Below are positions 31,077-34,232 of a stretch of 64,000 nt of DNA, piece after piece (position 1 is the stretch's first letter; the number at the start of each line of letters is the position of its first letter). Location: the NCBI RefSeq assembly GCF_020523795.1, contig NZ_JAJALI010000001.1:558001-622000 (forward strand), in the 5' to 3' direction. The notes beneath the pieces are model-generated. The model worked only from the letters and a program-made list of their open reading frames with translations. It had not been told where the DNA came from and ran no database searches. Both the position numbers and the translations under genes were made by a program. This DNA is from Ancylobacter sp. Lp-2. GTDB lineage: Bacteria > Pseudomonadota > Alphaproteobacteria > Rhizobiales > Xanthobacteraceae.

Positions 31077-32201
31077 TCACGGCTTGGGGAAGGCCAGCGG
31101 CAGCGGGGTCGGCATCGGCTTCAGCGGCGCGACGGCCAGCGCCTTGGCGTCGAGGTCGAAGCTCGTCAGGTCGATAGCGCGCAGCACCTGATCGTCATAG
31201 GTCTTCACATAATAGCGCCGGTTCTTCAGGTCGGCGACCGACGACCACTGGGTGTATTCCAGATCGGCGGTGCTGCCGCCGCCGGGCTGGATGAAGCCGA
31301 CCGGGATGTCGAAATTGTTGAGGATGTGCTCGGCGAGGCGCACGCTCGGCTCGCCGCTGGGCAGCTTCTGCGCCGACATCGCATAGCCGAGCGCACGGAC
31401 GAAGCGCGAGGGCGGCGTCGGGTCGCCGGGAATGCCGAGCAGGCCGGAGCCCTGGCCGAATGAGGAAATGGTCTGGCCGGCCACCTTGATGTCTGGCGCG
31501 TTGACCGGCGAGATCTTCACATAGTTCTTGAGATTGGTCAGGTGCCAGCTGAATTCGGGCGCGTTGGTCATCACCCCCAGCGGGTTGTCGTAGACCTTCA
31601 GCTCGCCACCCACCGGCTCGATCACCAGCGAGGCGCCGCCGGCGTCGTGCAGCGCGTAGTGGAAGGGCGGGGTGATGCCCATTTGCGGCTGGGCGACGTC
31701 AACGATGGCGATGCCGGCGAGCGCCGCCTTCACCTCGGCCACGGTGGCGAAATTGGTCAGCGCCCAGGTCAGGAAGTCCCACGGCGCCATGGCGCTCTTG
31801 GGGTCCGCCTTGGCCGGGTCGGCATAGCCAGCATAGTCGGGGAAATACAGGATTCCGCCGGCGAGGCCCTTCTCGTTCATGCCGTCGGTCAGCACCGGCA
31901 GGCCGAAGGCGTTCATGCCGACGGCGGCATAGGTCGAGGTCCAGGCGAGGCCGGGCTTGCCGCCGGGGCCGGTGCCGGCCAGCGCGAAGTGGCGGGGTAT
32001 CACCATCACGTCGGAGGCGAGCTTGAAGCCGAATTCCATGGTGCGGCCATAGACATAGGCGCCGTCGGAAGTGCCCAGCAGGAAGCTGGTGCAGGCCTGC
32101 GCCGGCGCGCCGAGGGCGAGGCTCAGCGCCATGGCGAGGGAGACGCCGAGGCGGGCGCCGCGTCCCGCAAGCGTCCGGCGTTTCGATTTTGCCTCGAACA
32201 T
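31077..32201 (-). CDS. Choloylglycine hydrolase / penicillin V acylase family protein
   Basis: Secreted N-terminal-nucleophile hydrolase of 374 residues. A basic N-terminus and hydrophobic stretch (LGVSLAMALSLALGAPAQA) form a signal peptide ending exactly before Cys37, the predicted catalytic nucleophile (CTSFLLGTSDGAYVYGRTMEF, with the conserved Arg). Other family features are TDGMNEKGLAGG, VMTNAPEFSWHLTNL and WSSVADLKNRRYYVKTYDD. It should hydrolyse linear amides such as conjugated bile acids, penicillin V or acyl-homoserine lactones, but specificity is unknown. It is convergent with phoB and diverges from the nitrile hydratase operon. Confidence 0.9.
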   Translation of the reverse strand: MFEAKSKRRTLAGRGARLGVSLAMALSLALGAPAQACTSFLLGTSDGAYVYGRTMEFGFKLASDVMVIPRHFALAGTGPGGKPGLAWTSTYAAVGMNAFGLPVLTDGMNEKGLAGGILYFPDYAGYADPAKADPKSAMAPWDFLTWALTNFATVAEVKAALAGIAIVDVAQPQMGITPPFHYALHDAGGASLVIEPVGGELKVYDNPLGVMTNAPEFSWHLTNLKNYVKISPVNAPDIKVAGQTISSFGQGSGLLGIPGDPTPPSRFVRALGYAMSAQKLPSGEPSVRLAEHILNNFDIPVGFIQPGGGSTADLEYTQWSSVADLKNRRYYVKTYDDQVLRAIDLTSFDLDAKALAVAPLKPMPTPLPLAFPKP

Positions 32202-32301: not shown

Positions 32302-32480
32302 GCCGGGGACCGTCAATCGGGACGCTGCACGCGCCGCTGCGCCCGCTCGTCCGCCTGCTTTTTCACCATGCCGTTTTTCTACTCCTGCGTCGTCGACACG
32401 CGCCGGGCGTGTCCGCATAATGCAGACTTCCCGGCGATTTCAGGCTGGCGATTTCAGGCTCTTGGGCGGACCGCATCGGC

Positions 32481-33194
32481 ATGGCAGGGCAGCACGACGA
32501 CCACGATCATGGCGATCATTCGCATAACGATCACGCGCATGACGGTCATGATCACGATCATTTCCACCGCATCCACTCGCAGGAAGCCGATGCGCTGCTG
32601 ATGTCGATCGCCGACATCGAGATCAGCGCCCGCGTCAAGGCGCTGGAGGAGCTGCTCACCCAGAAGGGGCTGATCGATCCGTCGGCGCTCGACGCGGTGG
32701 TGGATCTCTACGAGAACCAGATCGGCCCGAAGAACGGCGCCAGGGTGATCGCCCGCGCCTGGGCCGATCCCGCCTACAAGGCGTGGTTGCTCGCCGATCC
32801 CAACGCCGCCATCGCCGATCTCGGCTTCGCCGGCGCGCAGGGCGAGAACATGGTGGCATTGGAAAACACGGCGGATGTGCACAACGTCGTCGTCTGCACC
32901 CTGTGCTCCTGCTACCCGTGGCCGGTGCTCGGCCTGCCGCCGGTCTGGTACAAGAGCATGCCCTACCGCACCCGCATCGTGCGCGACCCGCGCTCAGTGC
33001 TGGCGGAATTCGGCACCGTGCTGCCGGCCACCACCGAGATCCGCGTCTGGGACAGCAATTCCGAGGTCCGCTACCTCGTCGTGCCGCGCCGCCCGGAGGG
33101 CACCGAGGGTCTCGACGAGGCGGCGCTCGCCGCCCTCGTTTCCCGCGACAGCATGATCGGCGTCACCGAAGCCCTGAGCCCGGAGCCGGCCTGA
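32481..33194 (+). CDS. Cobalt-type nitrile hydratase alpha (or thiocyanate hydrolase gamma-like) subunit
   Basis: Metal-bearing subunit of a nitrile-hydratase-family enzyme, 237 residues. The claw motif CTLCSC lies at residues 139-144; Thr in the second position is typical of the cobalt (rather than iron) class, in which two cysteines become oxidised. The following [23 protein letters not shown] and REYLV-type strands match the family. Residues 1-34 are extraordinary: twelve histidines with many aspartates ([20 protein letters not shown]). This looks like a metal-binding tail added to the normal subunit. The gene overlaps the next by one base. Nitrile hydratase versus thiocyanate hydrolase cannot be settled from sequence alone. 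Confidence 0.92.
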
Positions 33195-33532
33195 TGAACT
33201 CGGTTCATGATTGCGGCGGCTTCGACGGCTTCGGCCGGGTGGTACCGGAGGGCTATGACGGAAGCGAGCCGGTGTTCAAGCACGAGTGGGAGCGGCGCAT
33301 GTGCGCGCTGTTCATGGTCACCATCGGCGCGCATTACTCCGACGACGAGTTCCGCCAGTCGCGCGAGCGGCTGGAACCGGTGACGTACCTCACCCGCCCC
33401 TATTACGAGCAATGGTGGTTCGCGGTGGCGCGGCTGATGATGGAGAAGGGGCTGATGACCCCCGAGGAATTCGGCCGCCATCTCGCCGCCGGGCCTACGC
33501 CGTCCGCCGACATTCTCGCCGGAGACGCCTGA
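33194..33532 (+). CDS. Nitrile hydratase beta subunit, N-terminal half encoded separately
   Basis: A 112-residue protein matching only the N-terminal helical half of a normal nitrile hydratase beta subunit: [16 protein letters not shown] start, then FKHEWERRMCALFMV, YLTRPYYEQWWFAVARLM and GLMTPEEFGRHLAAG. It stops where the beta linker would begin, and the C-terminal half is the next gene. ATG 33194 overlaps the alpha stop (TGATG) and its own stop overlaps the next ATG. This split is known in thiocyanate hydrolase and in three-subunit nitrile hydratases such as ToyJKL, so it need not be a broken gene. Confidence 0.9.
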   Translation: MNSVHDCGGFDGFGRVVPEGYDGSEPVFKHEWERRMCALFMVTIGAHYSDDEFRQSRERLEPVTYLTRPYYEQWWFAVARLMMEKGLMTPEEFGRHLAAGPTPSADILAGDA

Positions 33533-33897
33533 TGCTCAGCGCCGCCGACATTCTCGACATTCTCGCCACCGGCGCCACCACCCGGATCGAGGATCCCGCC
33601 CGCGCCCCGGCCTTCGCGCCCGGCGATGAGGTCGTCACCCGCACCCTCAGCCCGCTCACCCATACGCGGCTGCCGCGCTACTGCCGCGGCAAGCGCGGCG
33701 TGGTGGTGAAGGTGCACGGCCTCTACGCGCTGCCGGATGTGCGCGCCATCGGCGATGAGGAAACGCGCGAATATTGCTACGCCGTGCGCTTCGACATGCG
33801 CGAGCTCTGGGGCCCGCAGGGCGCGGCGACCGACAGCCTCACCATCGACCTGTGGGACAGCTATCTGCTGCCCGCCCCGGCGGAGGCGACGCCGTGA
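33532..33897 (+). CDS. Nitrile hydratase beta subunit, C-terminal half encoded separately
   Basis: A 121-residue SH3-like barrel corresponding to the C-terminal half of nitrile hydratase beta. The core is FAPGDEVVTRTLSPLTHTRLPRYCRGKRG (conserved THTRxPxYxRG region that packs on the metal site), followed by VVVKVHGLYALPD, YAVRFDMRELWG and LTIDLWDSYLLPA. ATG 33532 overlaps the previous stop. Because both halves have intact starts, ribosome coupling and conserved ends, they look like true separate subunits. Confidence 0.9.
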   Translation: MLSAADILDILATGATTRIEDPARAPAFAPGDEVVTRTLSPLTHTRLPRYCRGKRGVVVKVHGLYALPDVRAIGDEETREYCYAVRFDMRELWGPQGAATDSLTIDLWDSYLLPAPAEATP

Positions 33898-34232
33898 CCG
33901 GCCCGCTGCTGCCCGATCTCGACCGGCCGAAGGCCTTCGCCGCGCCGTGGGAGGCGCAGGCCTTCGCGCTGGTGGTGAAGCTGCACGAGCGCGGCCTGTT
34001 CGAATGGCCGGAATTCGCCGCCCGGCTCAGCGCCGAGATCCACGCCCATCCGGACCAGCCCTATTATGTCTGCTGGCACGAGGCGGCAGTGGAATTGCTG
34101 GTCGACAAGGGGCTGGTGGAAGCCGGCGCCTTTCTCGACCAGGCGCGGGCGGTGGTGCGGTTCCGCGCCTCCGACCATCACCATGTCGCCCGCCTGACTC
34201 CCATCGCCGTCGACCCCGCGCGGGCCGGCTGA
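33894..34232 (+). CDS. Nitrile hydratase accessory (activator) protein
   Basis: A 112-residue protein of the nitrile hydratase accessory family, itself related to the beta N-terminal half. Typical segments are FAAPWEAQAFALVVKLHERGLFEWPEFAARL and YYVCWHEAAVELLVDKGLV. Such proteins aid cobalt incorporation or cysteine oxidation of the alpha subunit. The start is GTG 33894, overlapping the upstream stop as GTGA. It is last in the four-gene run. No amidase or cobalt transporter gene is seen within the window. Confidence 0.88.
   Translation: MTGPLLPDLDRPKAFAAPWEAQAFALVVKLHERGLFEWPEFAARLSAEIHAHPDQPYYVCWHEAAVELLVDKGLVEAGAFLDQARAVVRFRASDHHHVARLTPIAVDPARAG

Follow-up and report, generated by a model that had tools for sequence, protein, structure and literature searches.

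The 64,000-nucleotide stretch of the Ancylobacter sp. Lp-2 genome analysed here (the window) harbors an operon which is predicted from its sequence to encode an activator-matured, split-β, cobalt-type nitrile hydratase (NHase), a variant of a known enzyme. The best explanation, which we consider highly probable, is that this split-β cobalt NHase is matured by its activator and that a His-rich tail on the α subunit helps to gather cobalt during maturation; the substrate would be an organic nitrile rather than thiocyanate (R-CN + H2O -> R-CONH2). NHases are industrial catalysts, and loading recombinant NHase with cobalt is known to be difficult.

Gene organization and enzyme identity

The first gene (32481-33194, + strand) encodes an NHase α subunit of 237 amino acids (TIGR01323, 302.4 bits, cut-off 249.85), of which residues 1-32 (32481-32576, + strand) form a His/Asp-rich N-terminal tail with 12 His. 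It is followed on the same strand by βN (33194-33532, 112 amino acids; PF21006, 94.4 bits, cut-off 21.5) and βC (33532-33897, 121 amino acids; PF02211, 100.4 bits, cut-off 27.7), corresponding to the N- and C-terminal halves of NHase β, and by a βN-like activator or accessory protein of 112 amino acids with a GTG start (33894-34232, + strand; TIGR03889, 67.7 bits, cut-off 46), which also matches PF21006 (35.0 bits). The junctions α/βN, βN/βC and βC/activator read TGATG, TGATG and GTGA. Profile searches aligned βN to positions 1-103 and βC to positions 120-226 of the 226 positions of TIGR03888; alone they score 90.1 and 103, below the cut-off of 152.2, as expected for halves, and both β domains are present above their own cut-offs, carried by two chains. 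The original prediction of four genes with stop-start overlaps at 32481-34232 was correct in coordinates, frames and counts. The cobalt-class claw CTLCSC that it placed in α is seen in the residues of a protein that passes TIGR01323, its reading of two small proteins as the halves of a normal β agrees with the two Pfam domains and the complementary TIGR03888 spans, and its accessory protein matches the activator family above cut-off.

A promoter-like site (TCGACA-17-CATAAT, 32393-32421, + strand) lies ca. 60 bp 5' of the α start; with 10 of 12 consensus matches, and one such site seen against 0.3 expected in shuffled sequences, the consensus scan gives weak evidence. A choloylglycine-hydrolase-family amide hydrolase (31077-32201, - strand; PF02275, 261.9 bits) is encoded divergently from the operon and is retained in the related loci L002 and L003, while no match was found at the orthologous site of L004 (E 1e-15). 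Model searches of the window detected no amidase-signature (PF01425) or NicO-type cobalt transporter (PF03824) gene; elsewhere in the genome the amidase model has 13 matches and the NicO model has 4, the latter at two sites. The search for RNA families in the window gave 0 matches. The genome contains one α homologue. Among named relatives Ancylobacter sonchi is the nearest (α 96% identical), and of 30 genomes in the genus 8 have an α homologue, counting the present one. Four genomes from the order of an Azospirillum (G1518, G1520, G1522 and G1524) show 8-12 weak, partial NHase-α-like matches, mostly clustered, which we take to be probably NHLP-type RiPP precursor gene arrays.

The three-piece layout resembles that of thiocyanate hydrolase (SCNase) and of ToyJKL, and the window enzyme could in principle be a relative of these with a split β inherited from that lineage. 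The SCNase γ subunit indeed aligns with α in the PDB (157-163 bits), reaching into the N-terminal tail (query 17-100). The α subunit scores 178.2 on the SCNase γ model TIGR03887, however, against a cut-off of 291.45, and NHase relatives are far closer for all three chains. The best single-stretch PDB match of α is the cobalt NHase of P. putida (3QXE, 284 bits; 4OB1 reaches 297 only through the summing of two overlapping copies), βN matches SCNase β with only E 0.031, and βC gives 2e-23 with the P. putida NHase versus 4e-7 with SCNase α. Among 398 genomes of the phylum no TIGR03887 match above cut-off was found. In the α tree, eight of the nine labelled sequences from loci with the order βN-βC-α group apart in a starred clade with 11 members (SH-aLRT 99), the ninth (L080) being placed outside it, loose on a long branch. 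The window α lies outside this clade as well, in a tree that holds no ToyJ or S. canus anchor sequence; the link of S. canus and ToyJKL to the clade is made through the S. canus gene order (PMC7329996) and the published placement of the NHases of S. canus and S. rimosus on a branch of their own (PMC13243292). The window order, α-βN-βC-activator, differs from the S. canus type. Since a member of the clade (L124) matches NHases ahead of SCNase in the PDB, the clade itself is not shown to be SCNase. The kinship to thiocyanate hydrolase or ToyJKL suggested in the original prediction is thereby weakened, in a comparison that covered SCNase directly and ToyJKL through the S. canus gene order and literature, and we regard descent from that lineage as very improbable; an origin of the window's split in the SCNase-like clade was rejected on the TIGR03887 score and the α tree.

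Sequence motifs point in the same direction as the preferred NHase assignment. The claw CTLCSCY is reported to mark the cobalt type (PMC2770081), and C[T/S]LCSC followed by YPW is present in 120 of the 138 α sequences, including that of the window; one more reads WPW, and YPR follows the claw in 11, which have the order βN-βC-α (8) or an unresolved order. Arg54 and Glu58 of βN are invariant in all 134 aligned sequences, as are Arg46 and Tyr50 of βC in all 135, so both β halves look active. At a position where the P. putida enzyme has His (3QXE) or Leu (3QYH) the window has Gln, and the residue varies across the family. Taken together, these residues suggest that the enzyme is active and that its pocket differs somewhat.

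Recurrence of the split β subunit

The division of β into two chains is genuine. Six loci of the Ancylobacter group, the window included, are split with ATGA or TGATG overlaps; because the split recurs in other assemblies, those of congeners among them, it is not a sequencing frameshift, an artefact that the original prediction had named as grounds for refutation. The cut falls in the linker and no domain is lost, 120-126 bases separating the two domain matches versus 115 in the fused gene of A. radicis. Among 54 distinct split loci, βN and βC overlap by 1 or 4 nucleotides in 35, lie within about 10 bases in 15 and overlap by 14 in one; the other three gave no start.

For a survey of gene orders 149 loci were fetched by similarity or model score, a non-random set which includes duplicates and the window's own genome and which reduces to 138 distinct α cores. 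The order α-βN-βC-activator was found in 48, α-β-activator in 57, β-α-activator in 21 and βN-βC-α in 10, with 13 others. Two loci showed α only: the stretch of L031 ends just after α, and L081 has βN and βC ca. 2.6 kb upstream. In a set of 114 distinct new loci (set 1, see below) only two have the window's gene order, so in that set the split is the minority form. Tandem β-like genes (α-β-β-activator) occur in L097 and in five set-1 loci.

Within the genus, six of the eight loci are split with α first, one has a fused β with α first, and one is a distant β-α-activator locus. In the window, L002, L003 and L004 the operon is flanked by phoB upstream and by a short-chain dehydrogenase and a LysR gene downstream. 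Since L004 (A. radicis) shares these flanks yet has a fused β at the site orthologous to that of the window, one chromosomal site exists in both a split and a fused form. The loci L005, L376 and L377 lie elsewhere: in the stretches searched the flanking genes were not found, save dehydrogenase homologues at 31-33% identity. On the tree of the 138 distinct α cores, which was built quickly and leaves 54 of its 135 inner branches open, the distribution of split and fused β over 134 labelled rows needs 10 changes, a count from which direction cannot be read. The roughly ten switches between one- and two-chain β on this tree, one of them at a single orthologous site in one genus, provide natural pairs for testing whether splitting matters.

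The His-rich tail and cobalt maturation

The 12 His of the window α are at residues 5, 8, 10, 13, 15, 18, 20, 23, 25, 27, 29 and 32, in agreement with the count originally given for the first 32 residues. Across the locus set His makes up 27% of the α tails and 1.4% of the α cores, so the richness of the tail is not due to chance. Among the 135 readable tails (of 138 sequences), at least 4 His are present in 78 (counted from the nearest ATG) to 81 (from the farthest ATG), and at least 10 in 19, with a maximum of 18. Because at least 4 His occur in 49 of the 56 α-first enzymes with a fused β and in only 15-17 of the 45 α-first split enzymes, the tail is a common family trait and does not go together with the split. 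A split-β congener (L087/L376) has an α N-terminus about as long but without His (MTRTPSQQPEPAEPERTATPPAGAGEAAAGG), and an activator tail with only 2 His; the tail is thus not essential to the split-β type. The tail therefore loses the special standing that it had in the original prediction: of the two properties named there as refuting, commonness among relatives is borne out, and its absence from L087 suggests that in evolution it is dispensable. An α start at Met41, by which the tail would be lost, was rejected: L004 has only a GTG, and no ATG, after the tail, the sole ATG of many relatives precedes the His run, and the 12 His are kept relative to L002 despite three synonymous changes in His codons. 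A Roseomonas metagenome-assembled genome (L078, 5191-6600) encodes βN and a His-rich α fused in one protein (HHHHHHDHDHDHDHDHDHH between the domains), resembling the His-rich linker of eukaryotic NHases; no βC match was found nearby on the same strand.

In the proposed mechanism, β is produced as two chains separated at the linker that joins its N- and C-terminal domains, and the stop-start overlaps would link the translation of the four genes, which would keep the chains in balance. The βN-like activator would bind nascent α, and by inference from the P. putida enzyme cobalt would enter in the α-activator complex, where two claw cysteines would be oxidised, after which loaded α would join βN and βC. 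The His/Asp tail most likely serves to concentrate cobalt near the claw during loading. For P. putida, with the order α-β-activator, cobalt is reported to enter an α-P14K complex from which loaded α swaps into the enzyme (PMC3511329), and by analogy maturation in the window may proceed in the same way.

The original prediction envisaged a self-loading enzyme. In the strict form of this reading, the tail would take the place of the activator and supply α with cobalt unaided. Tail composition fits such a role, and cobalt is reported to enter S. canus apo-α without activator under reducing conditions (PMC7329996). An activator gene is nevertheless part of the operon, and the route described for P. 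putida leads through the α-activator complex (PMC3511329). Moreover, an activator was called in 119 of the 138 distinct relatives and is accompanied by a His-rich α tail in 67 of them, so tail and activator usually co-occur. Self-loading is therefore not supported, and we consider it improbable. In S. canus the split-β NHase is reported to mature with βN (AnhD) acting as chaperone, no activator having been found (PMC7329996). The window encodes both a free βN and an activator; because the S. canus βN does the work of an activator, the activator of the window could be partly redundant. In a quick tree of 253 βN and activator domains the activators need two changes, both forced by starred branches. 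A test of whether the activators form a single clade gave a better tree with the activators together, which was not rejected (AU p 0.67), on an alignment with few columns and many long branches.

The tail might also be irrelevant to loading, being a tolerated low-complexity expansion of a DNA repeat or a metal buffer of a general kind. In favour of this, tails show free variation in length and order, the DNA that encodes the tail consists of a GAYCAY-like repeat, and L087 does without a tail. The comparison with L002 points the other way: α codons 1-40 differ by seven synonymous changes, three of them at His, and six non-synonymous ones, none at His, so that all 12 His are retained while six other codons changed their amino acid; from these counts, random changes would spare every His with a chance of about 0.1. 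The α cores differ by 15 synonymous and four non-synonymous changes. In addition, His richness recurs in distant lineages, also in some activators where α is without it. On balance a tail with no part in loading seems unlikely, although it deserves some weight, and a function in cobalt gathering during activator-dependent maturation is preferred.

The His-rich activators led to the tentative idea, which we hold to be somewhat less than even in probability, that the His/Asp tail acts as a movable, cobalt-collecting part of the α-activator maturation complex, located at the α N-terminus or the activator C-terminus, with lineages swapping the two places. In eight split loci of an Erwinia/Pantoea/Brenneria alni/Acerihabitans group, in which L052 (recorded as Martelella) is counted, the α tail has 0-1 His (MSDITEPTTPPN and similar). 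The activator C-terminus is His-rich in seven of these eight, for example DHDHHHHHHHHHHHHDHDHH in L056; in the eighth, L052, the activator is cut by the contig end. Four His-tailed proteins were checked (L056, L016, L041 and L047) and pass TIGR03889. Activators of this kind are also seen in Mesorhizobium/Azospirillum, some actinomycetes, Paracraurococcus, Mangrovicoccus-like bacteria, Latescibacterota and one Bradyrhizobium locus, and two Brenneria loci with the order β-α-activator (L043, L049) have neither tail His-rich. A parallel is reported for ureases, where UreG mostly carries a His stretch if UreE is missing (PMC2770081).

A tail was scored as His-rich when any 15 residues held at least 4 His, a rule fixed before new loci were added. 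In the 119 discovery loci the tail was found on α only in 63, on the activator only in 20, on both in 4 and on neither in 32 (Fisher one-sided p 1.2e-5). Set 1 comprised 125 loci, 25 from a search and 100 chosen by hand from match lists, mostly from the taxonomic order of the window; 11 duplicates were dropped, and of the 114 kept 103 had an activator call. These gave 70, 1, 0 and 32 in the same categories (p 0.32), with one activator-rich locus only. Set 2 comprised 89 loci, of which 22 were too short, four were duplicates and one had no α; 62 were kept, and the 39 with an activator call gave 8, 6, 1 and 24 (p 0.48). The exchange was not confirmed, as neither new set alone supports it. These separate counts still contain 16 loci (1 + 3 + 12) in which the tail taken for that of the activator really belongs to a β fused to its C-half and which were removed from the pooled set. 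The 245 pooled loci, which include the discovery loci, gave 140 with α only, 27 with activator only, 5 with both and 73 with neither (Fisher p 8e-8, ignoring kinship). In six of them, scored as α only (4), both (1) and neither (1), the activator frame runs off the end of the available sequence, so that its tail may have escaped reading, and in three (Latescibacterota, activator only) the α tail is too short for the rule and was scored as 0 His, a score that was borne out. Pagel tests on the pooled loci gave p 0.062 at the preset threshold of 4, 0.0039 at 3 and 0.018 at 5, and the correlation by independent contrasts was r -0.15, with p 0.015, or 0.062 in a sign-flip test. On starred branches there were 4-6 independent pairs, which gave no power. 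Thus, both tails together are rare (5 of 245), the tree-corrected support is marginal (p 0.004-0.06), and as support for tail exchange the counts are suggestive only. One of the five loci with both tails, L109, has a His-rich α; its activator frame contains a run rich in His and also continues uninterrupted into the next reading frame, as far as the analysed sequence extends. If the tail really moves between α and activator, this would point to the complex where cobalt is captured.

Comparison with known systems

In the open-access literature consulted we recognised no description of the order α-βN-βC-activator or of a His-rich activator of a cobalt NHase, and found nothing relevant on an Ancylobacter NHase. 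SCNase likewise has three structural chains, as judged from PDB names, and a known activator, P15K (cited in PMC3511329), whereas the window enzyme stays below the TIGR03887 cut-off and its PDB match to SCNase is much weaker. Eukaryotic NHases (Monosiga and others) likewise possess a His-rich stretch, of up to 17 residues, but there β and α are reported to be fused with this stretch as the linker, while in the window it is a free N-terminus (PMC3323583, PMC2603476).

The P. putida NRRL-18668 cobalt NHase with P14K (3QXE) shares with the window, the split aside, the α-β-activator order (PMC3511329), as well as the CTLCSC-YPW claw and a His-rich α N-terminus (HTHDHHHDG in P. putida). It differs in having one β gene and a tail whose aligned portion shows 5 or more His, versus 12. 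Similar to the window, the NHases of S. canus and M. flocculans are described with β as two chains (PMC7329996, PMC11573777, PMC13243292), which in S. canus are homologous to the β N- and C-halves (PMC7329996). Unlike the window, S. canus has the order βN-βC-α with no activator found (PMC7329996), and in M. flocculans α is located between the two β genes; the window has α first and encodes an activator. Three-subunit NHases as such are thus already known from these two organisms, and the split β and the His tail of the window each recur among its relatives. Of most interest are the repeated changes between split and fused β, one of which took place at a single orthologous site, and the possibility that the His tail moves.
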